A DNA stretch of 34,795 nucleotides from a virus, in the IMG/VR virus record IMGVR_UViG_3300017719_000067, positions 1-34,795 of that record; one strand, written 5' to 3'. The notes beneath the pieces were generated by a model. The model worked only from the letters and a program-made list of their open reading frames with translations, did not search any database and had not been told where the DNA came from. Position 1 is the first letter of the stretch. Each line of letters starts with the position of its first letter. The position numbers were made by a program, and so were the translations under genes. Positions 739-27,458 of this stretch are shown here, in pieces.

Positions 739-3612
739 TTATTTTAGTATATTAAAAATTTTTTCACTTTTTAAAATTGCTGGGGAAGCAGTATTACTAA
801 AAGCTTTAATATAACCCGGCCAATTTACTGCGGGCCTTCCATCAGGAGCTATTATAGAATAGTCTAAATCTGAGGTTGTTTTGTTTTCTTTTGATTGAAA
901 AAATACTTCTTGTTGAAAAACTTCTCCTAATTGTTTATAATTTATACCGGAATAATCAAAATGAACTGCGTCTTCATTTCCGTTAAAGTACCCGCCCCAT
1001 CTTATACCGTACTGAGATGCAACTTCTGCTATCTGACTAACCTCCCAAAGGTAAAGGTCGCCTCTTTTTCTTAACCTAGTACCACTGGGTAAAACTAAGT
1101 TCATATCTAAAGCTGCTGCATAGTTATGAGCTGAAGAACCAGGTTCGGCATTACCTGTAGAGTAATATGTTTCATCATCATCATATTTAAGTTCAAAAGA
1201 TCTTTCTAAAGATCTAAAGGTAGCATTTATTTCAACTTTATATTGTTGGTACTCTCTAAATAGGTGATCAAAAAATCCTCGGAAAGCTTCTTGTATTCTA
1301 CTATCACTATTTAACCTACCTAATAAAGTTTCTAAAGAGATTTCTCTACCAAAGGTTTCTGGGAATGCGGGTTGATCTTTTACAGTTTCTTGATCTATAA
1401 TCTTAAACGGAATATCAGGATTACCTACTTCTCTATTTTCAGAAATAGCAGACTCTAATGCTCCGGAGCTTAATAAACTATCTTCATCTGATAAAACTCC
1501 TTCACTTCTTTTACCTACGATTATAGTCTGTGCTTTTATATCAGTATTCCATTTATTATTCTGGACTACATGGGAAATACCGGTTATAAGAAAACCTACG
1601 ACACCATTGTACTTTTCTGGAAGTATTCCTTCATTTAAAGTAAAAGCTTGTCCTATTTTTACTCCTCCTATACCGTCTAAAGTTATATCTAAATCGAAAG
1701 GAATAATACCGGCGGGTCCTGCTGGTGCAGTTCTGTTAGTTTCCTCTCGAACTAAATACTGCATAACTTCTTTATGAACGTTTTTCAAGCCGTCTATAGT
1801 ATCTACATTATAGTTTTTAGATCTATTAAATTCCTGGATACCTCTTGAAAGCTGTGTAGCGCTATTAAGTACTCTGTTTTTTTTGATTTCTAACGTTTCT
1901 TTACTTATAACGTTTCTTTCTTTTACTATTCTATCTTCTAAACCTTGATTCCACCTAAACATATTCTCAACATCTTGTCCTACATCGGTACTAGAAGCTT
2001 GAGCAGATATAGCTATCATAGAAGCTATGTTAGGTGAAAGCTTACTAGATAGAGAAATATTAGTAACAGTAGATTTTAAACCAGTTATATTAAGTAAAGA
2101 ATTTGCTAAATTATTTTTGTTAGGTGTTAATCTTCTATCGACTAAGTAATACAAAAATTCTTCTTCTTCATAATGTAGTCCAAACTGATTTATTTCTCCT
2201 AAAGTTGAAGATAAACCGCTAATTAAGGTTTCCACAAAATTTAAAACTGTTCTTTGAGAAGCTGACTGATTATTAACCGTGTCGAGTATTCTTAATACAT
2301 AACTAATTTCAAGATAGATATTTAAAATACTTGTATCACCTCTTTCACCTCTTGTATATACGTACTGCTGTTCTTCATCGTCTTTAGGTCCTAATTTATA
2401 TTTAAGTATACTATTTTTAAATTGATTCTTTTTAGGTAAAAAAGCAATTTTAGGATCTAAAGCAATATGTTCTGAGAAAGTTAAAAATAAGCTTTTATCT
2501 TCTTCTAAACTAAATTTGAAGAGTTTATTACCTTGTTGGTCTTCTAATAAAAAAGCCACATTAATTAAAGCTAGTAAATCACCTATCCTTATGTGCCTTA
2601 ATTTTTTTGATTGCTTACTATCTGAATCTTCTGAGATATTTTCTACTCCTGAAAGATCTGTTCTTAAAACGTAAAATGAAGTTAATCTGGCTTCTTTTTT
2701 ATATCTTTCATATAAAACCGGAGCTTTTTCTTCTAAGTTACCAATGATCTGTTCTTCGTTAGGAGTAGATTGAATAACTTCTAAAAAATTAGTAATAGCT
2801 GTCTTAAGAATCTGAGGTTGTTTATCTACTCCGATTTTTTCGTTTACTTTTTCACCACTTTGAGCAGGACTTAAAGCAACTTGAACTGATTCAATTAGTT
2901 CACCGGCAGATATAATTGTTAACTTACAATCATATCCTCCATCAGTTCTATAAGACCATAAAAAGTTTTTTACGTATCCAAAGACAGCATCGTAGTTTTG
3001 ATTGCTTTCTTTTTTATATTTTTTTATTTCTTCTATTACTTTCTCTTTAGACTTACCGTCAGTAAAGTAATTTTCAACTGTGCTTGGAGGCATTGTTTCG
3101 ACTCTACCTGAGTTAGTTAAATACATAGAATGTCCCCATTCTAGTAGTACAGTAAAGCCTGGTCTTAAATATAACTGCTCTAAATCTGTTAATTGTTCTA
3201 CTGACCAAGCTTGAAAATCTACTGTTGCTTCTCTTAACGTACCGAATCTATTCTTAGAGTCTATGCTAAAGTTTGTAATACCGGGCATTGGTCTAACGCC
3301 CATACTTTCGTATTTGTTATACGCTGTGTTAGAACTTACTCCGTTAAAGTTAATACCGCTTTTAGGAATAGTAGCGTTTTCTTTAAATGAACCGCCAAAC
3401 AGTATATTGTTTTTTGCAAGTGTAGCGCTACCGTCGCTGTTAACTGAAGAAGATAGTTTTACCCATCCGGTTTTAGAATTTAGATAAAGTAACTGTGTAT
3501 TACTTCTACCGGTTCGGGTAGTATATAGTTGTTCACGCTTTTCAAGCTGTTTTAATACATCCGGGTCTAAAGGACCTCCGATTATTGAACTTGCATTGTA
3601 ACCTATAGCCAT
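739..3612 (-). CDS. Baseplate hub protein with C-terminal M15-type peptidoglycan peptidase domain
   Basis: This 957-residue protein combines a long hub-like region with a C-terminal peptidase. The N-terminal part (about 1-740) includes the segment RPMPGITNFSIDSKNRFGTL, followed by TLREATVDFQAW and LRPGFTVLLEWGH, which I associate with gp27/gpD-like hub proteins of marine T4-like phages. A second hub-like stretch near 670-735 contains FLITGISHVVQNNKW. The C-terminal part shows the LD/DD-peptidase (M15) zinc-site pattern: SSAHNYAAALD with His829 and Asp836, then WGG and VHFD with His884. The Gly usual in SxHxxGxAxD is Ala. Such a fusion would parallel the gp27-gp5 lysozyme hub of T4, opening peptidoglycan at injection. 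The gene overlaps the gp53-like gene by one base. The fold call is good; cleavage specificity is inferred. Confidence 0.75.
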   Translation of the reverse strand: MAIGYNASSIIGGPLDPDVLKQLEKREQLYTTRTGRSNTQLLYLNSKTGWVKLSSSVNSDGSATLAKNNILFGGSFKENATIPKSGINFNGVSSNTAYNKYESMGVRPMPGITNFSIDSKNRFGTLREATVDFQAWSVEQLTDLEQLYLRPGFTVLLEWGHSMYLTNSGRVETMPPSTVENYFTDGKSKEKVIEEIKKYKKESNQNYDAVFGYVKNFLWSYRTDGGYDCKLTIISAGELIESVQVALSPAQSGEKVNEKIGVDKQPQILKTAITNFLEVIQSTPNEEQIIGNLEEKAPVLYERYKKEARLTSFYVLRTDLSGVENISEDSDSKQSKKLRHIRIGDLLALINVAFLLEDQQGNKLFKFSLEEDKSLFLTFSEHIALDPKIAFLPKKNQFKNSILKYKLGPKDDEEQQYVYTRGERGDTSILNIYLEISYVLRILDTVNNQSASQRTVLNFVETLISGLSSTLGEINQFGLHYEEEEFLYYLVDRRLTPNKNNLANSLLNITGLKSTVTNISLSSKLSPNIASMIAISAQASSTDVGQDVENMFRWNQGLEDRIVKERNVISKETLEIKKNRVLNSATQLSRGIQEFNRSKNYNVDTIDGLKNVHKEVMQYLVREETNRTAPAGPAGIIPFDLDITLDGIGGVKIGQAFTLNEGILPEKYNGVVGFLITGISHVVQNNKWNTDIKAQTIIVGKRSEGVLSDEDSLLSSGALESAISENREVGNPDIPFKIIDQETVKDQPAFPETFGREISLETLLGRLNSDSRIQEAFRGFFDHLFREYQQYKVEINATFRSLERSFELKYDDDETYYSTGNAEPGSSAHNYAAALDMNLVLPSGTRLRKRGDLYLWEVSQIAEVASQYGIRWGGYFNGNEDAVHFDYSGINYKQLGEVFQQEVFFQSKENKTTSDLDYSIIAPDGRPAVNWPGYIKAFSNTASPAILKSEKIFNILK

Positions 3613-12241: not shown

Positions 12242-12442
12242 TTATTTTTTATTTACAACTTTTTTATCCCAAAATCTTTCGTAACCAAAGTACCCAGCTG
12301 TCTTTATAATAGTATCTAAGCTACCGATAGCTAATCCAAACTTCCAATTACCGCTTACAAACCAGCCGGTACCTATAGTAATTAAGGTAGCTATTACTCT
12401 CCATATAAGAGTCTTTACTAGTGTTTGTTTATAGCTTGCCAT
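12242..12442 (-). CDS. DUF2061-like small membrane protein
   Basis: This 66-residue protein has two hydrophobic helices (about residues 10-29, LIWRVIATLITIGTGWFVSG, and 33-52) and a basic, aromatic C-terminus with GYFGYERFWDKK. The KTLIWRVIAT...IGT pattern followed by GxxIGxxDTIIKTxxYFxYERxW is the signature of DUF2061 inner-membrane proteins. My recollection is that this family is sometimes found beside sulfate-activation genes in bacteria, which would fit the APS kinase two genes upstream, but I could not check it. The start overlaps the end of the nucleotidyltransferase gene by 14 nt, so translation is probably coupled. Its biochemical role is unknown. Confidence 0.75.
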   Translation of the reverse strand: MASYKQTLVKTLIWRVIATLITIGTGWFVSGNWKFGLAIGSLDTIIKTAGYFGYERFWDKKVVNKK

Positions 12443-12779
12443 CTTCTCTCATTTTAGATCTAATTTTAGTAGCAGAGATTTCTTCTATATCCTCAGGAGG
12501 TACATGCTCTATTACTTCGTATCCTACACCTCTTCCGTAGTTGATAGATTCTATATCTGGGATTTTAATTATTTTAATTCTACCTTTGTTTAAAAGGTCT
12601 TTTAACTCTTCGGTTAGATTCAACATTACTTCATCTGAAGTCCAAGGTTGATTTTCATTTGGTTCAACATCTCGGATACAAATTAAAACGTTTTTACCTT
12701 CATTTAAACGCTGATCTATCAACCATCTATGTCCTTCATGCCAGGGTTGCCAGCGACCTATAAACATACTATATTTCAT
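12429..12779 (-). CDS. Nucleotidyltransferase of the cytidylyltransferase-like (HxGH) superfamily
   Basis: This is a minimal 116-residue Rossmann-like nucleotidyltransferase. The nucleotide-binding signature FIGRWQPWHEGHRWLI (residues 6-21) matches the GRFQPxHxGH motif, and the C-terminal ISATKIRSKM (101-110) matches the ISxTxIR motif that contacts the triphosphate. It would transfer an NMP from NTP to a phosphate-bearing (or possibly sulfate) acceptor. NMN adenylyltransferase and ATP sulfurylase belong to the same superfamily. Its position between APS kinase and DUF2061 makes an adenylyl-transfer role in sulfate activation an attractive but unproven idea. The overlaps of 11 nt upstream and 14 nt downstream indicate tight coupling. 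Confidence 0.8.
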   Translation of the reverse strand: MKYSMFIGRWQPWHEGHRWLIDQRLNEGKNVLICIRDVEPNENQPWTSDEVMLNLTEELKDLLNKGRIKIIKIPDIESINYGRGVGYEVIEHVPPEDIEEISATKIRSKMREDGKL

Positions 12780-13200
12780 CTAATATCTTTTTAAATGATT
12801 CTTCAGGTGTATCTTTTGTAGTATCAATATCTATAAAATTTTTTTGGGGTGCTATATACGCTGAAGATTTAAAATGATCACGTTGTCTTGTTTCAGAGGT
12901 ATGTACATATATTTCTTTTATGTTTTCACCTAACAGTTTTTTAAAATCTTCTCTCTGGTCTATATAAGGAGAAACTAAAGCTACAATAACATCTTTACCT
13001 TGATTATGCAAATAATGAGCTATACGTTGAGCTGTGCTTATATTTTCAACCCTTCCTTTGATAGTATAATCTTTATTAGAGAATAATTCTCTCATATCAT
13101 CACCGTCTATCATGTAAATAGATTCCGGTAAATGCTCTTCTAGCATTTTAGCTAGTGTCGTTTTGCCGGCACAAGGCTGTCCTGTAAACCAGTATATCAT
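12769..13200 (-). CDS. cysC: Adenylylsulfate (APS) kinase-like P-loop kinase
   Basis: This 143-residue P-loop kinase carries a Walker A GQPCAGKTT at residues 7-15 and IDGDDMRELFS at about 31-41, the counterpart of the CysC LDGDNxR motif. A GRVENIS segment follows, matching the ENIR-type APS-binding region. It would phosphorylate adenylylsulfate with ATP to make PAPS, the donor used by sulfotransferases. The neighbouring upstream gene is a sulfotransferase whose stop overlaps this start by 4 nt. The protein is shorter than bacterial CysC (about 200 residues), lacking terminal extensions. A related small-molecule kinase role is the alternative; gene context strongly supports APS kinase. Confidence 0.82.
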   Translation of the reverse strand: MIYWFTGQPCAGKTTLAKMLEEHLPESIYMIDGDDMRELFSNKDYTIKGRVENISTAQRIAHYLHNQGKDVIVALVSPYIDQREDFKKLLGENIKEIYVHTSETRQRDHFKSSAYIAPQKNFIDIDTTKDTPEESFKKILDEI

Positions 13201-14015
13201 GTACTATAATTAAAATACTCGTAAAACCAAGGGTAAGTATTAACTATGTTCTGTGATAGTTGTTGACCTAAATATTCATTGTATGATTCGGGAACAGGTT
13301 TAACTTCTTTACGGATTGTATGATCTCCAAAGATACCATGTACTGTATCATCTTCTTGGGTTAACTGTTCTACATTTTGAAAATCATGTTGATATCTTTC
13401 AATCCCAAAAAAATCGTATACTTTATCTAATTCTATTTGAGGATTAGAAGTTAGATCTTCAAATCGTATAAATAAAATATTTTTATCTGTACCTTCATCT
13501 ATTATCTGTTTTAGTCTTTCTACAGCGATTCCAATTGGAGGATTTTGAGCCCAATGATCAACTCTTTTAGCTGTTGTAGTACCTTTCATTTCAGCCCAAT
13601 TTACAATACCGCTATCTTTATCTTGATTCTTCCTAAAGTTTTTCTCCATAGAAGCATAGATAGATCTTAAATCTCTAACCATACACACTATTTTAGGATC
13701 TGAGTAGAATGAGTCTAAAAAGCTATAATGTATTCCCCATCCTCTGGATTTATCTATTACGTACTTCTTATCTGTAATACCGTTAAAAAATCCTTCTACT
13801 CCTTGACGGCAAAAATTAAGCCAGCCTTTTTTCATTAACTCACCATCTTGAGCTTGAAAAGCGTTATCAGAAGTATAGTTTTTACGAGCAGCAAATAATA
13901 ATTCTAAAACACCAGAGGTAGGTGTTACGTAAAAATCAGGATTTTGACCTAAAATATTCTGTAGTAACGTACTACCTGCTCGAGGTAAAGAAGACTGAAA
14001 GAATATTTTTTCCAT
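13197..14015 (-). CDS. PAPS-dependent sulfotransferase
   Basis: This 272-residue protein starts MEKIFFQSSLPRAGSTLLQN, the 5'-phosphosulfate-binding loop (SLPRAGSTLLQ) of the sulfotransferase fold. The second nucleotide-binding element is seen near residues 112-127 as VCMVRDLRSIYASMEK, with the Arg and Ser that contact the 3'-phosphate of PAPS. Later, FIRFEDLTSNPQIELDKVYD is the usual helical segment of this family. It would move sulfate from PAPS to a hydroxyl or amino group on a glycan, lipid or peptide; the acceptor cannot be predicted. It lies between a glycosyltransferase and the APS kinase, with a 1-nt and a 4-nt overlap, so donor supply and transfer are encoded together. Confidence 0.9.
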   Translation of the reverse strand: MEKIFFQSSLPRAGSTLLQNILGQNPDFYVTPTSGVLELLFAARKNYTSDNAFQAQDGELMKKGWLNFCRQGVEGFFNGITDKKYVIDKSRGWGIHYSFLDSFYSDPKIVCMVRDLRSIYASMEKNFRKNQDKDSGIVNWAEMKGTTTAKRVDHWAQNPPIGIAVERLKQIIDEGTDKNILFIRFEDLTSNPQIELDKVYDFFGIERYQHDFQNVEQLTQEDDTVHGIFGDHTIRKEVKPVPESYNEYLGQQLSQNIVNTYPWFYEYFNYST

Positions 14016-14890
14016 TATAAGTCCTCTATAGCCTGAATAATATCTTTTGAATTAAATACTTCAGTGAGGTCGTTATAAGGAATTGATGAAATGTCTTGTG
14101 CTAAATTAAATGGCTGATAAGCGGCTTGTTCAATTAACGGTTTTTTAGTAAACTTATTTCTTGTAAGATTAGTATGTAAACCGTACCCAAACTGTCCGGG
14201 GTTGGTAGTAACCCATGCGACGACTGATGGTTTATTCATAGCAGCAGCTAGATGCTGTCCAAAACTGTCCATAAGTAATCTCTTTTGAGATAAAGAGATA
14301 AGAATAGCTATACTACGAAAACCATCCATTGCATGTAAAGTATCCGGGTAGACTGGCTGGTCTTGTCTTTTTATATGAGCAATAGTATACTTATCTTTGA
14401 AATGATTTATAACATCTAATACTGTGGGTGTAGGTATATCTCTAGTCCAAGAGTAATTAAAACCTTGATTTTGAGGTCCTCCATTAGGTTGAATAACCAT
14501 TATAGGTTTTTCAGTTTCATAGAAAGGTTTAAAATAATCTATTTCCGGCTGAGTTAAGAATAGTTCCGGGCTTTCTCCTTGATACTTTAAACCGAACATA
14601 TTACACCATACTTCAAATAGATGTTTCTTTTCTAATATAAAATCAGATTCACGATAAGGTTCTCCGGAAAATACTTTAGCTTCTTTACCTTTTATATATT
14701 TGAGGTAAACACCATTTATTTCATCTGAACGAAAAATCTGTTTAACGTCAGGGTTATTAAGGAATACATCTGGGTATGCAGATACTACGTATAGATTTGC
14801 TTTTTTGTATTTTTTTTTAATTGCTTTTACTATAGCGGTACCCATAATGGATTTACCTAGACCGCCGTCTATTTGAAAGAATATATTCAT
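14015..14890 (-). CDS. Glycosyltransferase family 9-like (heptosyltransferase-type) protein
   Basis: This 291-residue protein has a GT-B layout. The N-terminal Rossmann domain starts NIFFQIDGGLGKSIMGTAIV, with the glycine loop and the VKAIKKKYKKANLYVVSAYP helix-strand typical of ADP-heptose transferases. A C-terminal donor-side motif near 210-230 reads LLMDSFGQHLAAAMNKPSVV, corresponding to the D-S-G-x-x-HLAxAxxKP motif of GT9. QPNGG at the domain junction is also expected. The sugar donor and acceptor are unknown; the acceptor could be host surface polysaccharide or a virion protein. The stop overlaps the sulfotransferase start by one base, making it the first gene of the cassette. Confidence 0.82.
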   Translation of the reverse strand: MNIFFQIDGGLGKSIMGTAIVKAIKKKYKKANLYVVSAYPDVFLNNPDVKQIFRSDEINGVYLKYIKGKEAKVFSGEPYRESDFILEKKHLFEVWCNMFGLKYQGESPELFLTQPEIDYFKPFYETEKPIMVIQPNGGPQNQGFNYSWTRDIPTPTVLDVINHFKDKYTIAHIKRQDQPVYPDTLHAMDGFRSIAILISLSQKRLLMDSFGQHLAAAMNKPSVVAWVTTNPGQFGYGLHTNLTRNKFTKKPLIEQAAYQPFNLAQDISSIPYNDLTEVFNSKDIIQAIEDL

Positions 14891-15261: not shown

Positions 15262-15924
15262 TTAAAATTTCAATTCAGTCAATTCTCCTTCATCCCCAAA
15301 TCCTACCTTAGGTACGCTATTAAAAGCTAAACTACATCTTACGGTTTCAGTTTTATTTAAAGGAACAGAATGACTTAGATGAGAAGGAAATAATAAAAGT
15401 AAGCCAGGAGAAAAATCTATATCAAAATTATTCCATGCATACTTTAAATCTTTTTTGTTTAAAACTTGTTTAGGCATTAGATAAGATACATTATGCCCTC
15501 CGTAAGTTTTATGAAATCTAATAGCTGGTGTTTTTTCTTCTGATTGACCAAAATAGAGTATTCCTGAGATTAAACTGTTAGGGTGGGTATGCTGTGTATG
15601 ATGTTGGCCAGGGTGTTTGTAAGAAAGCCATGATTGACCAAATTTATATCCATCATAATCATACCCTAACATATTACCGTATTCTTGAACTAGTGCTAAA
15701 ATAAGACTTTTTAAATCACCACATTCAGGTTCATCTAATATATACGAATTAACTGATCTGTCTCCATAATTAATATGATCTACTCTTTTTTCATCAATCT
15801 CAGTAAGCATCTGTTGTTCTGTAAACCATTTAGCTACATGTCCAAATTTATCCGGTAGATTGACAGCCATTACCGGAGTAGGAAAAAGCTCTAATACACT
15901 AAAATCTATTTTATTGTTTTCCAT
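15262..15924 (-). CDS. Putative 2OG-Fe(II) oxygenase, TIGR02466-like (fourth of four)
   Basis: This 220-residue double-stranded beta-helix protein opens ELFPTPVMAVNLPDKFGHVA, the usual 'lFptpv' start of TIGR02466-type putative oxygenases. The metal-site region is HTQHTHPNSLISGILYF (His112 and His114), with a distal His185 in FPSHLSHSV and RCSLAFN near the C-terminus. The first motif is HxH rather than the canonical HxD, as I recall for this family, so the identity of the third iron ligand is uncertain. If active, it would hydroxylate an unknown substrate using 2-oxoglutarate and oxygen. It is the last of four adjacent genes of this fold, 6 nt after the third. Confidence 0.78.
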   Translation of the reverse strand: MENNKIDFSVLELFPTPVMAVNLPDKFGHVAKWFTEQQMLTEIDEKRVDHINYGDRSVNSYILDEPECGDLKSLILALVQEYGNMLGYDYDGYKFGQSWLSYKHPGQHHTQHTHPNSLISGILYFGQSEEKTPAIRFHKTYGGHNVSYLMPKQVLNKKDLKYAWNNFDIDFSPGLLLLFPSHLSHSVPLNKTETVRCSLAFNSVPKVGFGDEGELTELKF

Positions 15925-15930
15925 AACTTA

Positions 15931-16524
15931 TTAATTATTTTGAATAAAATTAAAAGCAATTGATATTCTTTCTTTATCGCTCTCATTTCTTTCTACTGAA
16001 TGTTTAACCCACGAAGGAAAAAGAAAAAATTTAGACTCTTCTGCTTTACACACTACTGCTGTTGTATTAGCTAAAGTTTCTTCTCTTCTAATTTTTGATG
16101 TCATAAAAAATTCAGCATTATCTCCTCGATGTAAAACTAAATTTCCCATATTATTATCCGGTACGGATACATAGTAAGTACCAGATAGTATACTGTTTTG
16201 ATGATCGTGTTCTGTATTATAATCGTGCTTACCGTTTATATTAATCCACCAGTTACCTAGTTGTAAATCAGATATACCAGTATGTCTTTTAGGAATATCA
16301 TTAACAAATAAAGTAAGATCGTCAAATAACTTTTGTAAAGATTCTGGTATCGGTAGTATTAACTCTTTACTGTGCCATCCTCCTCTATTAGATATATTTA
16401 CTCCTGGTTTTTGTTCTCTTACTTTAAGGCAGTATTCTTTAATAGACTTATTATCTATACCCACTACCGGACATTCCCATAAAGGAATACTCCAAAGTAA
16501 TTTTTCAAAAACTTTAAATTCCAT
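15931..16524 (-). CDS. Putative 2OG-Fe(II) oxygenase, TIGR02466-like (third of four)
   Basis: This 197-residue protein has the same architecture as its downstream neighbour. A short N-terminal part (FEKLLWSIPLWECPV) is followed by the metal-site region YNTEHDHQNSILSGTYYV (His106, Asp107, His108), a distal His175 in FPSWVKHSV, and ERISIAFNFI at the end. The paired 'HxHxNSxLSGxYY' and 'FPSxxxHSV' motifs support the oxygenase fold; the substrate is unknown. The sequence differs clearly from the fourth copy, so the pair is not a recent duplication. It lies 5 nt downstream of the PKHD-type gene. Confidence 0.78.
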   Translation of the reverse strand: MEFKVFEKLLWSIPLWECPVVGIDNKSIKEYCLKVREQKPGVNISNRGGWHSKELILPIPESLQKLFDDLTLFVNDIPKRHTGISDLQLGNWWININGKHDYNTEHDHQNSILSGTYYVSVPDNNMGNLVLHRGDNAEFFMTSKIRREETLANTTAVVCKAEESKFFLFPSWVKHSVERNESDKERISIAFNFIQNN

Positions 16525-16529
16525 ACTTT

Positions 16530-17150
16530 TTATCTAAAAGGACGTCCTCCGGTCCAAAATACCAAACATCTTCTCTCTCCTCTTGTAATAGGAGTTACTC
16601 TATGCATACAAAATGAAGGAAATACTATAACGTCTCCTTTTTCTCTAGGAACTGTTAAATAGTCTTCACCCCCCATCCAAATCTGAAAGTCTCCTCCTTC
16701 ATAATCAGATGAGTCGGATAATTGAACAGTCATAGCAAGTTTACGTTTATTAACCCCATGAGCACCTACATCCATATGCCAATCTAAATGACCTCCGTCT
16801 TCTGGGTATATAACATAATGTATTGAGTCAGTAACTATATCTATATCAAAATGAAACGCTTTTTCGTTTGCTTCTAAAGCAAGTGGAAATAGTAAATCGT
16901 ATAACCATTTAGAATGAGGTTGAGGATTAATATAAGCAATATCTCTATTATTAGTTCTATATGAATCAGTTACATTTCCTAATTCTTGAGTTCCTGTTTT
17001 ACCTTTTTCAAATTTATAATTAGCATACACCATATCAGTTAAGTCTTTGATCATTTTGTCATCCAAAACGTTCTTCCAATAGTAAAAACTATTCCAATTA
17101 GACTGTGGGGTAAACTGATTATATGGTATTAACGGAAAACTATTCTTCAT
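16530..17150 (-). CDS. 2OG-Fe(II) oxygenase, PKHD/prolyl-4-hydroxylase type (second of four)
   Basis: This 206-residue protein has a complete iron facial triad. LDWHMDVGAHG supplies His125 and Asp127, and FPSFCMHRVTPI supplies His183, followed by an Arg (about 193) in GERRCLVFWTGG that would bind 2-oxoglutarate. The KLAMTVQLSDSSDYEGGDFQ strand is characteristic of PKHD-type (PiuC-like) hydroxylases, related to prolyl 4-hydroxylases. It probably hydroxylates an amino-acid side chain or small molecule. This is the most canonical member of the four-gene block, and its start overlaps the previous gene by 11 nt. A protein substrate among the neighbouring fibres is a possibility only. Confidence 0.9.
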   Translation of the reverse strand: MKNSFPLIPYNQFTPQSNWNSFYYWKNVLDDKMIKDLTDMVYANYKFEKGKTGTQELGNVTDSYRTNNRDIAYINPQPHSKWLYDLLFPLALEANEKAFHFDIDIVTDSIHYVIYPEDGGHLDWHMDVGAHGVNKRKLAMTVQLSDSSDYEGGDFQIWMGGEDYLTVPREKGDVIVFPSFCMHRVTPITRGERRCLVFWTGGRPFR

Positions 17151-17730
17151 CTCTTCTTTCTATATGTGTGAACCATCCTGTTAGTATATATTTAGTTTGG
17201 GTTGGGGATACAACTCCTCTATGCATATATAACCAATCGGCAGGCCATATAACTAACTTTCCTCGTTTTGGCTCTTCAAAATGGTGTTGATATAAAAACT
17301 CTGTTTCTCCTCTATCAGTTACATCATTTAAGTACACCATCCACACTAGCAATCTTTTAGAGTGTTTTATACCGGCTCTTTCACAATGCCAGGAAGAAAA
17401 ACCTTCACCAGGAAGATATCTCTGCAGATTAAAAGAAAAATCGATATCGAAAGGATCCATTTTTTCCATAGCGGTTCGATGTCTTTCAATATAATCAAAT
17501 TTATTTTTTTCTAATATATCAACTAATGACTGTAAAAGAGGAGCCCAGGTTTTATCTTTGAGATATCCAGGATGAAATGAAATATCTGTTGATTTTTTAC
17601 CAGAATCTGAGCTTTCACCGTTAGGTCCAAAAACTACACCTGGTTTTTTATCATCAGAGGCTTCGAAAGTCTCTATAAAAGCTCTGCATAACTCAGGAGA
17701 TAAAGCTCCTTCTTTACTGTAAAGAAACAT
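17140..17730 (-). CDS. 2OG-Fe(II) oxygenase with HxE variant metal motif (first of four)
   Basis: This 196-residue protein has the jelly-roll oxygenase pattern: FSSWHCERAG (His115, Glu117), LLVWMVYLNDVTDRGETEFL, then YMHRGVVSP (His170) and QTKYILTGWF (Lys180 where Arg often binds 2-oxoglutarate). The acidic ligand is Glu rather than the usual Asp. The HxD/E...H triad and the YLND...GETEF strand agree with P4H-like 2OG oxygenases of marine phages. Activity is likely but not certain because both the carboxylate ligand and the 2OG anchor are non-canonical. It begins the oxygenase block, one base after the 229-residue gene. Confidence 0.82.
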   Translation of the reverse strand: MFLYSKEGALSPELCRAFIETFEASDDKKPGVVFGPNGESSDSGKKSTDISFHPGYLKDKTWAPLLQSLVDILEKNKFDYIERHRTAMEKMDPFDIDFSFNLQRYLPGEGFSSWHCERAGIKHSKRLLVWMVYLNDVTDRGETEFLYQHHFEEPKRGKLVIWPADWLYMHRGVVSPTQTKYILTGWFTHIERRDEE

Positions 17731-18762: not shown

Positions 18763-19809
18763 TTATACATGTATGTGAACAACTGATGATGTATTAGGTG
18801 TTGCAGGGGTCCCAGGACCTGATGTATATTCTTCAGTACAGGAGTAAAACAGACATGAAGGAGTTCTTTGAGCTCCACCTACTAAAATACCGTTACCTGC
18901 TGTCCCGTCACTTCCTACTCTACATCTTCTTACATTAGTAGAGGTAGTAGTAGACCAAGTAGAGCCGTTATAAAGCTCACTGGTAGTATGAGATATAGAT
19001 GTAGTATTGTTATACCCTGACATAGCTATGGTGCCATTTTGTGTACCTGCACCGCCATGCCCCATTCTCGGCTGGCTCATGTTTCCTCCGGTAGACCAGG
19101 AACTACCATTATATTCTTCAGTACTAATTACAGTAGATGGGTTTTGTCCTCCAAATATTAACCCTGAGTTTTGAGTGCCTGTTACTGCTGAATTATACCT
19201 ATTAATAGATGTGTTTCCTCCGTTAGACCAAGAACTACCGTTATACTCCTTTGTACAATTATCATAGGTAGAAGGAAAACCTCCTGCGCTTAAACCAGAA
19301 TTCTGTGTTCCAGTACCTTGTGAACCTTGCTGTGAGTTAGGGTAACTACCGCCTGTAGACCAAGAACTACCATTGTATTCTTCAGTTCGATTCTGGTTAG
19401 AAGGAGTTGCACCAGTAAAACCTAAAGCAGCATTTTGAGTTCCAAAACCTCCTAGATCTCTTCTAGATACAGACATAGCAGATACATTAGTCCAAGAGGT
19501 TCCATTATATTCTTCAGTACAACTAGTAACAATACTGGGAGACCGCAAACCACCAAACGCTACAGCTGATGTTGAATTTCCTGCTGTACCTAAAGATCTT
19601 CTAGCATTATTCATAGCTCCGCCAATAGTCCATACTGCTGCTCCTGGACCTGCAGGTTGACCTCCGCCAAACTCTAGTTTAGAAATTACTATTTGGTTAC
19701 TACCGGTATCGAACCACATATAACTATCTCCAGGAGCAGTAGAAGCTGATGGAGGATTAAGTGGAAGCCTTAATGAACCGGTAATAAAAGTTGTCTGTAA
19801 CTGTGCCAT
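18763..19809 (-). CDS. Kelch-type six-bladed beta-propeller fibre protein (copy 2)
   Basis: This 348-residue protein consists of an N-terminal anchor (residues 1-48, with ITGSL and YMWFDTGSNQ) and six kelch-like repeats of about 45-50 residues. Each repeat follows the pattern EEYNGSSWSxGG, a short Arg-containing loop, then GTQNxxLxFGG. A short Gly/Pro/Thr-rich tail (SGPGTPATPNTS) ends in VVHIHV. Six repeats suggest one closed six-bladed propeller. The anchor is shared with the two genes upstream, so it probably docks on a common fibre or spike base while the propeller binds a host receptor. Cys often precedes the EEY of a blade. The gene starts one base after copy 1. Fold confidence is good; receptor binding is inferred. 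Confidence 0.8.
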   Translation of the reverse strand: MAQLQTTFITGSLRLPLNPPSASTAPGDSYMWFDTGSNQIVISKLEFGGGQPAGPGAAVWTIGGAMNNARRSLGTAGNSTSAVAFGGLRSPSIVTSCTEEYNGTSWTNVSAMSVSRRDLGGFGTQNAALGFTGATPSNQNRTEEYNGSSWSTGGSYPNSQQGSQGTGTQNSGLSAGGFPSTYDNCTKEYNGSSWSNGGNTSINRYNSAVTGTQNSGLIFGGQNPSTVISTEEYNGSSWSTGGNMSQPRMGHGGAGTQNGTIAMSGYNNTTSISHTTSELYNGSTWSTTTSTNVRRCRVGSDGTAGNGILVGGAQRTPSCLFYSCTEEYTSGPGTPATPNTSSVVHIHV

Positions 19810-19810
19810 A

Positions 19811-20884
19811 TTATATAGATATTGACCCTGATCCCATTATGTACGAATCTGATGTTCCTGGTGTTGCAGGTCCTGCGTTATATTCGTAAGTGCTACTAGC
19901 ATTAACATTAGACGGCCAAGACTTACCGCCGGAAGCTACAGCAGCGTTTTGAGTACCGAATCCATCTATACAGCGTCTAGTAGCAGGTAAATTTGAGGTA
20001 TTAGCCCAAGAAGTACCGTTATAAGTTTCACTAGATCTTTGAGAGTTAGTTTGGTTCCCGGGATAAAATCCTCCAAAAGCTAAAGCTGAGTTCACCTCTC
20101 CTGCTCCTCCCAATCCGCTCCTTAGTACATTCATATTACCTCCTGATGACCAAGTAGTACCGTTGTATTCTTCTGTCTGACACGTATAGTAAGGTGCTAT
20201 ATTCCCGCAGATACTGCCACCAAAAGATAAAGCGGCATTCTGAGATGATCCTGCATAACCTACATACCACTTATTATAACCGGACATAGCGTTTGCTGAG
20301 GTCCAGGAAGTACCGTTATACTCATCAGTACAGGTACCGCCTGCGTTTGTTGTACCTGCAAAACCTACTGCTGCGTTTTGAGTTCCTGCGAGACCGGGTT
20401 TACCTACAGTAGTTCGAGGTACTGTACCTCCAAAACTCCAAGTACTTCCGTTATACTCTTCAGTGCATGTCCCATTAGGTGAACCTCCAAAGACTAATGC
20501 AGAATTCTGTGTCCCTGTTCCTGCTAATCCATTCCTAGCTCTATTTAATGCTCCTCCAGCTGAATAGCTTGTTCCGTTGTATTCATCAGTACAGCTTAGA
20601 TCCCATGGAGTTGTTGGATACTGTCTACCTCCTGTTACTAACCCTGCATTTTGAACACCTGCTCCTGCTAAATTATAACGACCAACAGGTACACTCCCCG
20701 CACTAGACCAAGTACCGTTTCCTCCAGGAGTGCCAGGTGTACCTGGAACTAAGATACATTTGGTAAAGTGTAGTTTTGCGCTTCCACTATCATACCACAT
20801 CATTCCGGTATGTGAAGTATCCGGTGTTCGTCCTAATTTAATCGAACCTGAAGCGTGTACTGTAGTTGCTTGTAACTGTGCCAT
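19811..20884 (-). CDS. Kelch-type six-bladed beta-propeller fibre protein (copy 1)
   Basis: This 357-residue paralogue of the next gene has the same plan: an N-terminal anchor (MAQLQATTVHASGSIKLG... MMWYDSGSAKLHF), a PGTPGTPGG linker, six kelch-like repeats with DEYNGTSWT/EEYNGTTWS strands alternating with GTQNAAxxFGG strands, and a Pro/Gly tail ending YIMGSGSISI. Blade loops differ strongly between copies while the strand motifs are kept, as expected for paralogous binding proteins diversified at exposed surfaces. Cys at the strand before DEY/EEY recurs in several blades. The host partner is unknown. The gene lies 3 nt after the MAM-like protein and 1 nt before copy 2. Confidence 0.8.
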   Translation of the reverse strand: MAQLQATTVHASGSIKLGRTPDTSHTGMMWYDSGSAKLHFTKCILVPGTPGTPGGNGTWSSAGSVPVGRYNLAGAGVQNAGLVTGGRQYPTTPWDLSCTDEYNGTSYSAGGALNRARNGLAGTGTQNSALVFGGSPNGTCTEEYNGSTWSFGGTVPRTTVGKPGLAGTQNAAVGFAGTTNAGGTCTDEYNGTSWTSANAMSGYNKWYVGYAGSSQNAALSFGGSICGNIAPYYTCQTEEYNGTTWSSGGNMNVLRSGLGGAGEVNSALAFGGFYPGNQTNSQRSSETYNGTSWANTSNLPATRRCIDGFGTQNAAVASGGKSWPSNVNASSTYEYNAGPATPGTSDSYIMGSGSISI

Positions 20885-21602: not shown

Positions 21603-24600
21603 CTACTTTTGTTTTAAAACTTTTATTTCTTCTTTCAATTCATTTATCTGTTCTTGTTGTTGTTGTAAAGCTTTTACGAGAACGGTTGTTAATTTAGAAT
21701 ACTGTACACCATGTATTTCTCCATCTTCTTCATATGATACTAGGTTAGGGAATACTTTTTCAACTTCTTCAGCGATAAATCCAATGTCTTTTGTTTTATC
21801 TTGTTTCCATTGGAATTCTACTGGTTCAAGTTGCTTTATATTTTCAATTTGATCCTGTAGAGGTAAAATACATTCTTTATGTTTTCTAGCTGATGTTTCT
21901 ACTAATGTTGTAGTACGTGTTGTACCTGACACACAAGCATTATTCATAAAGGTGTAATTGTCAGCAGTTGAGGTTAAGCTTTTACCTACAATAAACGAAC
22001 ACTTATGACCATTAATATAATTATTTGATCCACCTAAAATAGCTGAGCTGCAAGCGCCGTTACATATACAGTTGCAGAGACCACCTGCTATAGTATTAAA
22101 AGACTCATTGGTAGAACCGATAATATTATTACATTGGCCCCCTGCTATCGTATTAGCAGTTCCATACTGAGTAGCTACAATACAGTTTAATGTTCCACCC
22201 CCGACAGTATTATAAACACATCCTTGCACCACATTACAACAACCACCTGCTATAACAGAAAAGTTAGTGTTATTACAAACTCTATTACATTGACCACCAC
22301 CTACAGAAGAAAGATAACCACAAACTACATTACTACATCCACCTCCAATAAAAGAACAATCTCCATCTACTTGGTTGGCACGCCCACCACCTATTACAGC
22401 AAAAATTTCTCCACTACATATTGTGTTTTGACAACCTCCCCCAATAACTCCACAGTGACCTCCAATGGTATTAAGTCTACCAGCTCCGATAAATCCATAA
22501 CAACCTGAGACTGTATTTGTATCGCCTCCTACAATAACACCTTGATATGCAGATACTGTGTGGTTAGTACCACCTGCTATAACTGATCCTCCATGAGTAA
22601 TACAGTTATTGTATCCTCCTCCAATAGCAGAAACTGCTGCACTTGGCTGGTTACCGTCTGTTACTACTATATCATTATTAGAGCCTCCTGCTATAACATG
22701 GTTTGATGAAGCTGCTGACCCGCTAATATTATTGTTAGTTCCTCCTCCGATAAATGCTCCACATGTGTTGCAAATATCATTATTAGTACCTGAACCTACA
22801 AAACTTCGTTGACCAGAAACAAAGTTAGAACAGCCACCACCTATCACACTACTACCGGAAGTTACACAGTTTGCTTGACCCCCGCCTACCACACTTAGTT
22901 CGTCTGTAACTGTATTACCGCATCCACCTAAAATGGCTGAACAATTACCTTCTGCATTATTTGATTTACCTCCTGCTATTACAACGTAAGGGGCTGAACC
23001 TGTATTACATGCTCCTCCTCCCATAAAACTAAAACAAGTAGAACCTATTAAACAGTTTGAAGCTCCTCCTGCAATTGTTGATCCATAATCAAAACCAGAT
23101 GTTCTGCAAATTAAATTAGTTGCTCCACCGGCAATAGTTGAATTAGCAATGTTACATAATATTTTATTGTTTTGACCTCCTCCGATTGTATTAATATTGT
23201 GAGCAGTGCAGATACAGTTCCCCATACCGCCGGTTAATGTGTGTCCATAACAAGTACCACCTATATCATTTTGACATCCTCCACCTATAAAAGATAGTCT
23301 ACCAGTAATACAATGATCACGTCCACCTACTATAACATTACAGTTACATTGAGCAATAATGTTTCTACAACCGCCTCCAATAAAACTATAATCTGAGTCT
23401 ATTATGTTGCAATAACCACCTACTATAGCACCATAGCTTTCGCCTGAACAAATTTCATGATTGTATCCACCCCCTATTACACCATATTGTCCTGCTGCAT
23501 TATTATGGTAACCACCTCCTATGAAAACATGACTATTAGCAATACAGTTAGTGCATCCTCCTACTATAGATGAAAAGTCTCCATCTACACAATTTCCTTT
23601 ACCACCTCCTATGAAAGCAAGGGTCTCTCCACTACATATATCATTTCCACAACCTCCTCCTATAAACCCACAATCACCACATGTTCTATTTAGTCTACCT
23701 CCTCCAACAAATCCATAGCACCCAGAAACAGAGTTAGAATCTCCTGATAAAACAGCAGCTTGGTATGCAGATACAGTACTATTAGTAGCAACACCTATAA
23801 ATCCAGTACCGGCAGAAACTAAGTTATTGTACCCACTTATTACTACCCCTCCGGTATCTAAAGTGGATAAACTTTCGTTCATCTTAATACAACTCTGTAA
23901 CCCGCCAATAATCATATGGTAAGCTGAGTTTGTATTACCTGAACCGCTAATAAAATTATTTTTACCTCCTAAGATTGAAGAACATTTAGCACTACATATA
24001 CGGTTGGTAATACCTCCTACTATATTACTATGAGAACCTGAGTTGATAACGTTGCATTGTCCTCCTACAATATTAGCATAAATACTACTATTTACAGCTG
24101 AATTTAAACATCCACCTCCTATAAATCCGCATGCTCCTGAGCCTGTGTTTTTGGTTCCTCCTGCTATAACTGCTATATTAGCTGCAATACAGTTGTAAGC
24201 ACCACCGGCAATAGTTGAACAGTCTCCGTCTACTATATGATTACGTCCACCGCCGATAGTAGCATAATCTTCAGCATTACATATAATATTAGATCGTCCA
24301 CCACCTATAGTTCCTGCTTCACCACAAACACAGTTTCCTCTACCTCCACCTACAGTTCCTGCCTTGTCTGTAATTTTATTATTACAGCCACCGGCTATAG
24401 TTTGATAACTTGAATAAGTTCCGGAAAGTGAATTATCTCTACCCCCACCTATGGTATTATATCCTGAGTATGTACCAGAAATAGTGTTAGTACATCCTCC
24501 TCCGATGACGTTATACCAATAGTCGGAATTAGTACAGTTATCCTCTCCTCCTGCGATAACACTGAATCTATCTCTAACACAGTTACTACACCCACCGCCT

Positions 24601-27458
24601 ATAGTTGAAAATATGTTTTCAATCTTATTAATATACCCTCCTCCAATAAAACTACATGCACCTGCCGACGTTATACAGTTGTCTCTACCTCCGGCTATAG
24701 CTGTTACTGTTGCTGAAAGGCTGTTGTTATAACCACCTGCTATAATAGAACAGGCACTAAGTACGTCATTTAGTCTACCACCTCCTACAAAACTACAGTT
24801 ACCTGTTATACAGTTGTCACATCCTCCTCCGATAAAACTACAGTTACCAGTAATGGTATGATTTATACCACCTCCTATAGAAGACTTAGTACCGGATAAT
24901 GTATGACCTGTTCCTATCTGTATACATCCACTACCGCTTATATTACCGCCTACTGTTAAATTTGTACCGTCAAAAATAAGATTTGAACTACCTGCAAAAC
25001 TACCACCGTTATTATACTGTACTTGAGTATCAGAACCGCCTGGAGATCCTCCTACTCCTGTTAGGTTGCTACCATCACCCACAAAGGACCCGCTAAATGT
25101 AGAAGCAGAGACTGAACCTTGTAGGTGTGTGCTAGTAATATCACTATGCCCGATAACTACTGTATTGGATCCTTTGCCTACAGCACAACAACCAATTACT
25201 ATTGAGTTAGAATCATTAGAATTTAATGTTCCGGCTTTATACCCTACTAAAGTGTTGCCGCCGCCTGTTGTTAAAGTACCTACACCAGTACAGTAACCGA
25301 TTAAAACGTTATTACCTCCTGATTGAATACTATTACCTGCGTTATAACCTACTGCAACATTATTAGAATGGGCAGAACCGTTATGAAGTGCTGCATAACC
25401 GATTGCAACAGAACTTTGAGGGCCTGGGAAGGTATAGTTAGAACTGTACAATGCTTGATATCCTACAGCTGTGTTTGTTCCTCCTCTTTGATTTTTTTCT
25501 CCTGCGCTATAGCCGATAAGTACTTGGCGTTGCCCAGAAACGCTTAGATCTTTTCCTGCATTAACACCGATTACAACGTTTGCATCAGGTGATGTTGCAT
25601 TAAGAAATGCATCTTTACCTATTACAACGTTATTTAATGTATTTGTACTCCTAGTACACCCTGCATTAACTCCAATACTAGTAGATGTTCCTTCAAAATT
25701 TAATACACTAGCAGTAACTCCTCCAGTAAGCTCTAACTCACCACTAGCGCTTATATTACCTTCTACGGTTAGTTTTTGGGATGGACTGGTTGTACCGATT
25801 CCTAATCTGTCATTTGAAGTGTCCCAATGTAGATTTGTATCTGAGGTTAGTTCTGTTCCTGAGTTCCAAATAGCAAGTTTATTAGCAGCTCCTGTGCCAG
25901 TTACAGTACCGGTACAAGTAGTAGCTCCAATATCCGATAATACATTAGCTCCTGTTCTAAAGTCTACATTACCAGATGAATCTAATACTAGGAATTTATC
26001 TGTGTCGGTTCCTGCATTTACTACTGAGGATAGATTTAGAGATCCTGTAACATTAATAGATCCTGTAAATGTATGTGTATCAGATATTTCATCTCCAAAT
26101 CTGTTCGAACCAGTTGCAAAAGATATAGATTGACTAACTACATTAGTTACGATTTCAGTTGCTGTTACTTTACCCCCTACTGTTAAGTTTGTACCGTCAA
26201 AAGTAAGATTCGAACTACCGGCAAAGTTACCACCGTTATTATATTGTACTTGAGTATTAGAACCGCCTGGGGATCCTCCTACTCCTGTTAAGTTACTACC
26301 ATCGCCTACAAAAGAGCCGCTAAATGCAGAAGCAGAAACTGTTCCTTCAACATCTAAATTATTCATAAATGTAGTACAAGAAGCAGAGGAAGTTAAATTT
26401 GAACCTACTATAAATGAATTATCATGTATTACACAGTTAGAATTTCCTCCTAGAATACCTGAATTGTCACCATCTAGTATATTAAGCTGTCCTCCTCCGA
26501 TTACACTGTATTGTTCAAGACTACATATTGAATTAGAACAGCCACCCCCTATAAAGCCGTAATTTCCATAGATTGCGTTAGATCTACCACCACCGATAAG
26601 ACCGTACCAGGCGGCTGCTGATATACAATGATCGCGACCACCTACTATACTTGAAAGAAGTCCGGAAATAGAGTTGTTACATCCTCCTACTACAACTGTA
26701 CAGTTAGCAAGAGCGTCATTTTGTGTACCCCCACCTACAAAGCTTAGGTTTCCAGATACGCAGTTGGTGCTACCACCCCCAATAAAAGAACAAGTACCTG
26801 ATATAGTATTTAAAGTGCCTCCTACAATAGAAGATAAAGTACCAGAGTTAGTATGTCCTGTTCCTATCTGTATACACCCACTGCTGCTTATATTACCCTC
26901 TATGGTTAATTTTTCTTCAGGATTAGTAGTTCCTATTCCTAGCCCTGTAGAGTCAAGGCGCATTCTTTCACTTCCGTTAGTGTCAAAAGAAATTTGTGTT
27001 CCGCCGGCTTCTAAAGCCATTTTACCTTGTACGGTTTTGATAATACTATTAGCGTTAGTATCTACAAATTTAAGAGTACTTGTATTTGTTGAACTTTCAA
27101 GCCTTAACATTTCTCCTGAGCTTGAAATATGCAATGCTTTCTGAGGACTAGACGTACCAACACCTAATCTATTATTAGCTGTATCGAAAAATATACTATT
27201 AGAACCTGATATAGCTGTACCTGAAGACCAAACTGCTACTTCACCGGTTGCTCCTCCATCATCTGTTACGTAAGTACCACTAGCCTGACCTCCGATATCA
27301 GAAAGCACATTTGCTCCTGTTCGGAAATCTACATTACCACTACCATCTAATACTAGGAATTTGTCGGTATCAGTACCGGCATTAACTACTGAGGATAAGT
27401 TAAGAGAATTTAATGAAGCGTCAGAACCGCTCGTGATCAGTTTTTTCCAGTTCGGCAT
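21603..27458 (-). CDS. Giant cysteine-rich YadA-head-like repeat spike with C-terminal S74 intramolecular chaperone
   Basis: This 1951-residue tail spike or fibre is the largest gene here. Order: N-terminal segment PNWKKLITSGSDASLNSL, shared in style with the 369-residue fibre protein; beta-rich linkers; repeat array A (nine GGGxxNxI repeats); a duplicated linker with SGSFVGDGSNLTGVGG; a YadA-head-like stretch (SVAIGYAAL, NNVAVGYNAG); the same linker again; repeat array B (about 59 repeats); then a peptidase S74 domain from Ser1856 (TSARKHKECI) through DIGFIAEEV to a C-terminal coiled coil. S74 domains trimerise beta-helical fibres and cleave themselves off at the Ser. By hand count it holds about 90 Cys, which is extraordinary for a fibre. 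The CTATTTAT box lies 66 nt upstream, after a terminator. Confidence 0.88.
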   Translation of the reverse strand: MPNWKKLITSGSDASLNSLNLSSVVNAGTDTDKFLVLDGSGNVDFRTGANVLSDIGGQASGTYVTDDGGATGEVAVWSSGTAISGSNSIFFDTANNRLGVGTSSPQKALHISSSGEMLRLESSTNTSTLKFVDTNANSIIKTVQGKMALEAGGTQISFDTNGSERMRLDSTGLGIGTTNPEEKLTIEGNISSSGCIQIGTGHTNSGTLSSIVGGTLNTISGTCSFIGGGSTNCVSGNLSFVGGGTQNDALANCTVVVGGCNNSISGLLSSIVGGRDHCISAAAWYGLIGGGRSNAIYGNYGFIGGGCSNSICSLEQYSVIGGGQLNILDGDNSGILGGNSNCVIHDNSFIVGSNLTSSASCTTFMNNLDVEGTVSASAFSGSFVGDGSNLTGVGGSPGGSNTQVQYNNGGNFAGSSNLTFDGTNLTVGGKVTATEIVTNVVSQSISFATGSNRFGDEISDTHTFTGSINVTGSLNLSSVVNAGTDTDKFLVLDSSGNVDFRTGANVLSDIGATTCTGTVTGTGAANKLAIWNSGTELTSDTNLHWDTSNDRLGIGTTSPSQKLTVEGNISASGELELTGGVTASVLNFEGTSTSIGVNAGCTRSTNTLNNVVIGKDAFLNATSPDANVVIGVNAGKDLSVSGQRQVLIGYSAGEKNQRGGTNTAVGYQALYSSNYTFPGPQSSVAIGYAALHNGSAHSNNVAVGYNAGNSIQSGGNNVLIGYCTGVGTLTTGGGNTLVGYKAGTLNSNDSNSIVIGCCAVGKGSNTVVIGHSDITSTHLQGSVSASTFSGSFVGDGSNLTGVGGSPGGSDTQVQYNNGGSFAGSSNLIFDGTNLTVGGNISGSGCIQIGTGHTLSGTKSSIGGGINHTITGNCSFIGGGCDNCITGNCSFVGGGRLNDVLSACSIIAGGYNNSLSATVTAIAGGRDNCITSAGACSFIGGGYINKIENIFSTIGGGCSNCVRDRFSVIAGGEDNCTNSDYWYNVIGGGCTNTISGTYSGYNTIGGGRDNSLSGTYSSYQTIAGGCNNKITDKAGTVGGGRGNCVCGEAGTIGGGRSNIICNAEDYATIGGGRNHIVDGDCSTIAGGAYNCIAANIAVIAGGTKNTGSGACGFIGGGCLNSAVNSSIYANIVGGQCNVINSGSHSNIVGGITNRICSAKCSSILGGKNNFISGSGNTNSAYHMIIGGLQSCIKMNESLSTLDTGGVVISGYNNLVSAGTGFIGVATNSTVSAYQAAVLSGDSNSVSGCYGFVGGGRLNRTCGDCGFIGGGCGNDICSGETLAFIGGGKGNCVDGDFSSIVGGCTNCIANSHVFIGGGYHNNAAGQYGVIGGGYNHEICSGESYGAIVGGYCNIIDSDYSFIGGGCRNIIAQCNCNVIVGGRDHCITGRLSFIGGGCQNDIGGTCYGHTLTGGMGNCICTAHNINTIGGGQNNKILCNIANSTIAGGATNLICRTSGFDYGSTIAGGASNCLIGSTCFSFMGGGACNTGSAPYVVIAGGKSNNAEGNCSAILGGCGNTVTDELSVVGGGQANCVTSGSSVIGGGCSNFVSGQRSFVGSGTNNDICNTCGAFIGGGTNNNISGSAASSNHVIAGGSNNDIVVTDGNQPSAAVSAIGGGYNNCITHGGSVIAGGTNHTVSAYQGVIVGGDTNTVSGCYGFIGAGRLNTIGGHCGVIGGGCQNTICSGEIFAVIGGGRANQVDGDCSFIGGGCSNVVCGYLSSVGGGQCNRVCNNTNFSVIAGGCCNVVQGCVYNTVGGGTLNCIVATQYGTANTIAGGQCNNIIGSTNESFNTIAGGLCNCICNGACSSAILGGSNNYINGHKCSFIVGKSLTSTADNYTFMNNACVSGTTRTTTLVETSARKHKECILPLQDQIENIKQLEPVEFQWKQDKTKDIGFIAEEVEKVFPNLVSYEEDGEIHGVQYSKLTTVLVKALQQQQEQINELKEEIKVLKQK
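21975..24894 (-). repeat. Array B: about 59 degenerate GGGxxNxI beta-roll repeats
   Basis: Roughly 970 residues of 16-17-residue repeats with core (F/T/V)IGGG-x-x-N-x-I and frequent Cys after GGG, before I, and before SF. It contains higher-order repeats: the block around SGCYGFVGGGRLN...CSGETLAFIGGG near 23570-23770 recurs near 22310-22510. It ends in the cap FIVGxxLTSxAxxxTFMNN. Confidence 0.8.
26385..26845 (-). repeat. Array A: nine GGGxxNxI beta-roll repeats
   Basis: About 150 residues of the same repeat type as array B. Its first six repeats align one-to-one with the first six of array B, and it ends in the same cap (FIVGSNLTSSASCTTFMNN). This indicates an ancient duplication of array plus cap. 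Confidence 0.75.

Follow-up and report, generated by a model that had tools for sequence, protein, structure and literature searches.

Trimeric bacterial adhesins such as UspA1 (Moraxella catarrhalis, 3PR7), YadA, BpaC, and CbpF share a beta-roll fold in which a 15-residue GGGxxN layer is repeated, and for the BpaC roll a rise of 4.8 Å per layer has been reported (PMC9543794). In the BAHT systems TibC and AAH, whose substrates are TibA and AIDA-I, the gene for a GT9/GT-B type glycosyltransferase adjoins that for a beta-solenoid adhesin whose repeats offer many outward acceptors; in the case of TibC, heptose is placed on Ser of a beta-helix, with Asp-110 as a candidate catalytic base (PMC4358343). 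The enzymatic S-glycosylation of Cys is also established (PMC6405829; PMC12457901). With regard to phages, it has been proposed that glycosyltransferases encoded by mycobacteriophages modify virion proteins (PMC11256854), an extensive disulfide network has been reported in the tail of the Agrobacterium phage Milano (PMC10811340), and the presence of iron in the tails of phages is a well-established topic (PMC11705849).

The locus described here is present on a 34.8 kb IMG/VR virus record (IMGVR_UViG_3300017719_000067), the whole of which (34,795 nucleotides) is referred to as the window. The window carries genes of the T4-like myovirus type, viz. those for the gp23 capsid protein, PhoH, the sheath, a gp19-like tube protein, and a T4 baseplate protein. 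Flavobacterium phage immuto_2-6A was identified as a relative, with 83% identity in gp23 and 63% in the sheath protein, and the host of the window phage is therefore likely a member of the Bacteroidota. An ORF of 957 aa in the tail region (739–3612) has an M15 peptidase (VanY-like) domain at its C-terminus and probably encodes a tail-associated lysin.

A single open frame on the minus strand (21603–27458) encodes a protein of 1951 aa, which is interpreted as a Cys-rich trimeric beta-roll tail fibre. It consists of an N-terminal MPNWKK anchor, a domain common to many uncultured phage fibres, two GGGxxNxI arrays, and a C-terminal S74 chaperone, all features of this protein being on the minus strand. 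Array A (residues 195–366; 26361–26876) has about 9 layers with outward Cys, and array B (residues 845–1850; 21909–24926) has about 50 layers and the majority of the Cys; YadA-type (xVIGxxA) layers with few Cys are recognised in the sequence of residues 595–775 (25134–25676). There are about 60 regular GGGxxN layers of 14–20 residues each, in which the layer Gly is invariant by choice of the anchor and the GG pattern is kept throughout. The Peptidase_S74 intramolecular chaperone domain (PF13884; residues 1856–1951; 21606–21893) was matched with an E value of 6.7e-12 and 46 bits against a Pfam cut-off of 22, and from what is known of the S74 family the fibre is expected to cleave itself before Ser1856. 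The best PDB sequence match of the fibre is UspA1 (3PR7, E 4e-11). An AlphaFold2 model of 14 layers of array B (residues 855–1077), obtained for the monomer from an alignment of 27 array segments, has a pLDDT of 94.5. The solved structure closest to it is 3PR7 (Z 25, rmsd 1.5 Å over 208 residues), and the next matches are CbpF and BpaC. The model supports a shaft of the UspA1/YadA-type left-handed parallel beta-roll, and this fold together with the S74 domain points to a homotrimer. The earlier note on this DNA had recognised YadA-head-like GGxxN repeats ending in an S74 domain, and the PF13884 match, the 3PR7 sequence match, and the modelled fold all agree with it. Of the features of type Vc adhesins, no YadA anchor was detected by Pfam, and no signal-like segment was seen upon inspection of the MPNWKKLITSG start. 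Just downstream of the fibre are two adjoining phrog_27227 paralogues (18763–19809 and 19811–20884), in which Cys is raised to 1.4 and 2.0%, respectively.

The fibre contains exactly 90 Cys, as a hand count in the earlier note (about 90 in 1951 residues) had indicated; the 30 other listed ORFs of the window have 39 Cys in total, and Cys makes up 0.4% of the rest of the phage proteome. When layers are numbered with the invariant second G as 0 (an unconstrained anchor being used for the position counts cited), the main outward positions are −5, +2, +3, +5, and +7, with +8 and +9 as turn positions; in terms of the motif, the outward sites are the residue preceding S-F, the two following GGG, the N-C-I position, and the next residue after I. 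Among the 73 layer Cys of the window fibre, 72 face outward and one inward (hypergeometric P = 2e-24). The Cys are thus indeed at fixed repeat positions, as had been claimed, and the examples given at that time (after GGG, in N-C-I, before S-F) were correct but incomplete, there being five main outward positions. In 2,573 layers from 101 Cys-rich arrays, each of these five positions is Cys in 12–15% of the layers, the interior positions −4 and +6 in about 1%, and the trimer-core position −3 in none. Cys usually favours buried sites, and the distribution found here is the opposite of that. The outward Cys sites are distributed among several positions and are not marked by a sharp motif, which speaks against the modification proposed below. 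The most extreme array observed is that of L111 (IMGVR_UViG_3300017780_009425), where an ORF of 1074 aa from about 11729 has 105 Cys and 2.15 outward Cys per layer; the glycosyltransferase described below was not found in its 26.8 kb record.

Using a pattern without Cys, 92 viral GGG arrays were recruited, about one-third of which are almost without Cys and about two-thirds of which have 0.3–1.3 Cys per layer. The comparison with other GGxxN repeat proteins that the earlier note had suggested gave a Cys-rich class, to which the window fibre conforms, together with an almost Cys-free one. Arrays sharing a contig were of the same class in all 14 contigs with at least two arrays. Judged by the origins of their contigs, many of the phages with Cys-rich arrays are presumably marine. 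At the outward positions, Cys increases from 0.3% in the Cys-free to 13% in the Cys-rich class, and acidic residues are reduced from 9.1 to 4.4%, Ser, Thr, and basic residues being alike in both; the halving of acidic residues would fit a negatively charged coat. A loose drift of TGN codons does not account for the Cys, because the Cys-free arrays occur at the same low GC and Trp is steady at 0.6%; hypermutation by a diversity-generating retroelement was also set aside, as the array spans 3 kb and Q, K, and E are likewise found at the outward positions. No GGG arrays were detected in 398 sampled Pseudomonadota genomes, in a search that had no positive control, and nothing relevant on Cys-rich phage rolls was found in the literature covered, which did not extend to subscription journals.

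Downstream of the fibre, also on the minus strand, is a gene (14015–14890) for a GT9-like glycosyltransferase of 291 aa, which based upon its model, profile alignment, and genomic association is a putative fibre S-glycosyltransferase. The model of this protein (pLDDT 93.8) matched 3TOV (Z 23.1), WaaF (20.9), WaaC (20.1), and TibC (19.9 over 258 residues); below these GT9 proteins came a plant NDH-complex subunit at Z 18 and the remainder at 11. Alignment of the enzyme family to canonical GT9 by hhalign gave 95.6%. In contrast to these comparisons, by which alone the kinship to GT9 is visible, the Pfam GT9 match is below the cut-off (E 0.014), the BAHT family models of NCBIfam gave no match to the enzyme, and no GT9 came up when PDB sequences were searched with a profile. 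On the strength of the model and the profile alignment, a GT9 fold is predicted for this enzyme. A Lys (Lys13) is invariant in the family (29/29 and 109/109 members) at the site opposite the catalytic Asp of canonical GT9 (GxxGD). Less base activation is required for a thiol than for a hydroxyl, so this replacement is compatible with a Cys acceptor, but it may also indicate some other activity. Residue 1 of the enzyme aligns to residue 97 of TibC and, therefore, the TibC-type beta-barrel is absent. The invariant columns of the family contain no four-Cys cluster that could correspond to a four-Cys iron finger.

The distribution of this enzyme follows that of the Cys-rich arrays. In records recruited without regard to Cys, it was found in 40 of 55 with Cys-rich arrays but in none of 27 with Cys-free arrays (P 3e-11). 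For all recruits the corresponding numbers were 57/88 and 0/27, and for the full set of records exceeding 30 kb they were 44/58 and 0/12; the Cys-agnostic subset takes precedence, because some of the Cys-rich records had been chosen for their similarity to the window protein or for a Cys pattern. The enzyme was not found in 27 of the 88 Cys-rich records with neighbouring loci counted, but many of these are fragments (about 13 exceed 30 kb), and absences from fragmentary virus records carry little weight. In the reverse direction, 80 viral loci chosen by the enzyme included 48 with a Cys-rich GGG array, 4 with a Cys-poor array, and 28, most of them short, with none. In 84 of 85 loci the enzyme gene lay downstream of the array, the median gap being 896 bp. 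Related phages are non-independent samples, and these locus counts may to some extent reflect a shared phage lineage. The special role that had been claimed for the Cys is supported, and, as could not be seen in the earlier note, the Cys go together with a glycosyltransferase gene. Exceptions to this rule are L511, L515, L516, L517, and relatives, a phage group where the GT9-like gene closely follows an MPNWKK fibre without Cys and where there is no protein rich in Cys within 10 kb, and L472, where no Cys-rich roll was seen within the flanks examined. In L472, a Ser/Thr-rich repeat protein (STTTTFNTSRS; 3–1226) is upstream of the glycosyltransferase and is a possible O-linked acceptor. L507/L509 were considered as a counter-example, with the enzyme beside a Cys-free GGG array, but 6 outward Cys were found in the YadA-type roll that the adjacent gene encodes.

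The association is most strongly supported by the fact that it recurs in bacteria, in pelagiphages, and in a cyanophage. In 50,697 public phage records, the enzyme was found only in the cultured pelagiphages HTVC111P and HTVC112P and in the single-cell virus AG-345-L05, a cyanophage. Over 147 layers, the YadA-type rolls of these three show 78 outward Cys, with the core positions free of Cys, in contrast to 2 outward and 11 buried Cys in 231 layers from 11 phages that have such layers but no enzyme. In HTVC112P the genes for the fibre (gp48) and the enzyme overlap by one base. The enzyme was found in a single one of 295 Bacteroidia genomes, in three copies. GGG arrays are present in 16 of the 295; they are Cys-rich in the genome with the enzyme, and those examined from the other genomes are Cys-free or nearly so. 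As the genome with the enzyme was found by means of a Cys pattern, it provides support but is not an independent draw. The Cys-rich, signal-less arrays of Bacteroidota adjoin a 'GGIGKSIAATAV' protein, to which the window enzyme (14015–14890) is 47% identical, and in two of four loci they also adjoin a sulfotransferase, to which the window protein at 13197–14015 is 52% identical. In the Bacteroidota MAG contigs L415 (6526–17720), L416, L417, and L418, a chromosomal cassette surrounds the signal-less Cys-rich array protein, with an NHL-repeat protein bearing a secretion tail, the GT9-like enzyme, and a sulfotransferase as members; in L417 the GT9-like enzyme is fused to an FkbM methyltransferase.

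In the window, the glycosyltransferase gene is followed on the minus strand by genes for sulfate transfer and activation. The end of the glycosyltransferase gene is overlapped by the start of a sulfotransferase gene (13197–14015; Pfam Sulfotransfer_3, 9e-18), and next to it are genes for an APS kinase, which makes the sulfate donor PAPS (12769–13200; Pfam APS_kinase, 2.1e-19), and for a small cytidylyltransferase-like nucleotidyltransferase (12429–12779; Pfam CTP_transf_like, 2.9e-6), for which a role in sugar or sulfate activation is uncertain. The sulfotransferase was found in 15 of 88 Cys-rich loci vs. none of 27 Cys-poor ones. Of 79 viral loci selected by the glycosyltransferase, 26 contain the APS kinase and about one-third contain relatives of the sulfotransferase. 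The gene row of L415, of about 11 kb, is comprised of CysD-like, CysN-like, APS kinase, array, glycosyltransferase, FkbM methyltransferase, and sulfotransferase genes. Four consecutive 2OG-Fe(II) oxygenase genes assigned by Pfam (15262–15924, 15931–16524, 16530–17150, and 17140–17730; minus strand) are placed between the fibre and glycosyltransferase genes of the window; their relatives near other arrays are rare (no more than three loci each), and it is possible that they tailor the glycan or the protein, their place in the module being uncertain.

The explanation that we favour, with moderate confidence, is that the outward Cys are acceptors for S-glycosylation, which are modified in the host cytosol and whose glycan is then sulfated. 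The fibre would be a long homotrimer with a shaft of the UspA1/YadA-type roll, from which the outward Cys project spread out and unpaired. In the reducing cytosol of the host, the GT9-like enzyme would place a sugar on their side chains, the APS kinase would provide PAPS, and the sulfotransferase would use it to sulfate the glycan, which further enzymes, the 2OG oxygenases here and FkbM methyltransferases in relatives, might tailor. The outcome would be a fibre coated with sulfated sugars, a coat that might serve, e.g., host binding (adsorption), hydration, or shielding. This mode would be analogous to that by which TibC/AAH heptosylate Ser on autotransporter beta-helices, except that it acts on Cys. 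Our results suggest that sulfated sugars are added to fibre Cys by virus-encoded enzymes, a chemistry that is undescribed for viral fibres. The broader proposal, that a GT9 clade with Asp replaced by Lys forms a new class of protein S-glycosyltransferases that hyperglycosylate trimeric beta-roll fibres of phages and some proteins of Bacteroidota at dozens of surface Cys in each chain, that phage-encoded PAPS synthesis and sulfotransferase then give the coat its sulfate, and that this system is common in uncultured aquatic phages, is in our judgement as apt to be wrong as right.

The glycosyltransferase could instead modify the roll on Ser, Thr, Asn, or some other residue, and the co-selected Cys could serve, e.g., solubility or metal binding. 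Ser and Thr make up 14 and 10%, respectively, of the outward residues, TibC and AAH act upon Ser (PMC4358343), and enzyme-positive L472 has its Ser/Thr-rich repeat protein in place of a Cys roll. However, the content of Ser and Thr is equal with or without the enzyme, and it is Cys that shifts from 0.3 to 13%; further, the same change in Cys has arisen independently in the YadA-type rolls. We consider this possibility rather unlikely. It is still less likely that the Cys are tolerated and not selected, i.e., that fibres made in the cytosol accumulate surface Cys which secreted bacterial homologues purge. In Bacteroidota genomes the GGG arrays, a good number of which have an evident signal peptide, do show about 0.00 Cys per layer, but phage arrays that lack signal peptides fall into those with about 0 and those with 0.3–2 Cys per layer, this split goes with the presence of the glycosyltransferase, and the low Cys of the rest of the window proteome shows no such accumulation.

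According to the proposal in the earlier note, the Cys would form disulfide ladders or staples, hardening the fibre once it is released into the oxidising outside, taken here as seawater. With a rise of 4.8 Å per layer, stacked outward Cys would be near each other (PMC9543794), and the disulfide network reported for the tail of phage Milano would be a precedent (PMC10811340). Pairing was examined by within-protein shuffles for the same layer and for offsets up to 4 layers, using three layer sets. No consistent excess of Cys pairs was observed at offsets of 0–4 layers in the 2,573 layers of the 101 Cys-rich arrays, although a planted pairing of 10% gives a z of about 4.7 and would have been seen. 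The sole positive same-column signal was +3/+3, at 1.2–1.3 fold (84 vs. 63, and 80 vs. 67 in the unconstrained-anchor set). Within a layer, the combination +3/+5 is avoided, Cys at −5 in adjacent layers are also avoided (13 vs. 35 expected), and the number of Cys per layer is under-dispersed (z −4.0), with at most about one per layer. Under-dispersed and unpaired Cys are what is expected for bulky modified residues and not for disulfides. Between homologues of 50–75% identity, outward Cys are kept in 58% of cases vs. 49% for outward residues overall, being substituted by S, Y, T, I, or N, so that the density is kept but the sites move. Free replacement of Cys in homologues, which by the earlier note would count against its reading, is thus half borne out, Cys being exchanged almost as freely as the other outward residues. 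Disulfide ladders, which also leave the link to the glycosyltransferase unexplained, are very improbable. The least probable explanation, to which we give hardly any weight, is that soft metals or iron are bound by the thiols on the surface, e.g., as a Trojan horse directed at siderophore receptors (a metal-binding or cofactor role had also been raised in the earlier note), since despite the high density of surface thiols, the presumably marine origin of many of these phages, and the established theme of iron in phage tails, His is unenriched at outward positions (1.5 vs. 1.9%), there is no CxxC-like clustering, and close Cys pairs are avoided.

If the S-glycosylation of outward Cys is correct, these phage fibres bear a dense covalent and probably sulfated glycan coat anchored on Cys, and virus-encoded protein S-glycosylation would be one more entry in a very short list. 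It would explain the sulfur-assimilation and sulfotransferase genes in the structural regions of phages, which are often taken as host-metabolism genes, and would revise the picture of host recognition for many aquatic phages. Outward Cys in beta-rolls would then provide a sequence rule for finding substrates, and a direct prediction follows for HTVC111P and HTVC112P, where one base is shared by the fibre gene and the glycosyltransferase gene.

In comparison with the known systems, the window fibre resembles UspA1, YadA, BpaC, and CbpF in its beta-roll fold and GGGxxN layers, but differs from them in its S74 chaperone, its approximately 60 layers, and its Cys-rich outward faces; unlike these trimeric autotransporters, it also has no signal peptide or membrane anchor. 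Glycosylation in mycobacteriophages concerns capsid and tail proteins, and we know of no Cys-laddered beta-roll among these. The glycocin S-glycosyltransferases, SunS, ThgS, and relatives, are GT2-like enzymes that also target Cys, the acceptor proposed here; however, a glycocin is a short peptide that is secreted and has a single site or a few, whereas in the window a GT9 relative would act on tens of sites of a phage fibre. There is a parallel in arrangement with TibC/AAH, where likewise a GT9/GT-B transferase stands beside a repetitive adhesin. In contrast to these, the window enzyme is only 291 aa long, lacks the beta-barrel extension, and has an invariant Lys for the catalytic Asp, and the system as a whole is phage-borne, has Cys and not Ser as its proposed acceptor, and is supplemented by a sulfotransferase and an APS kinase.
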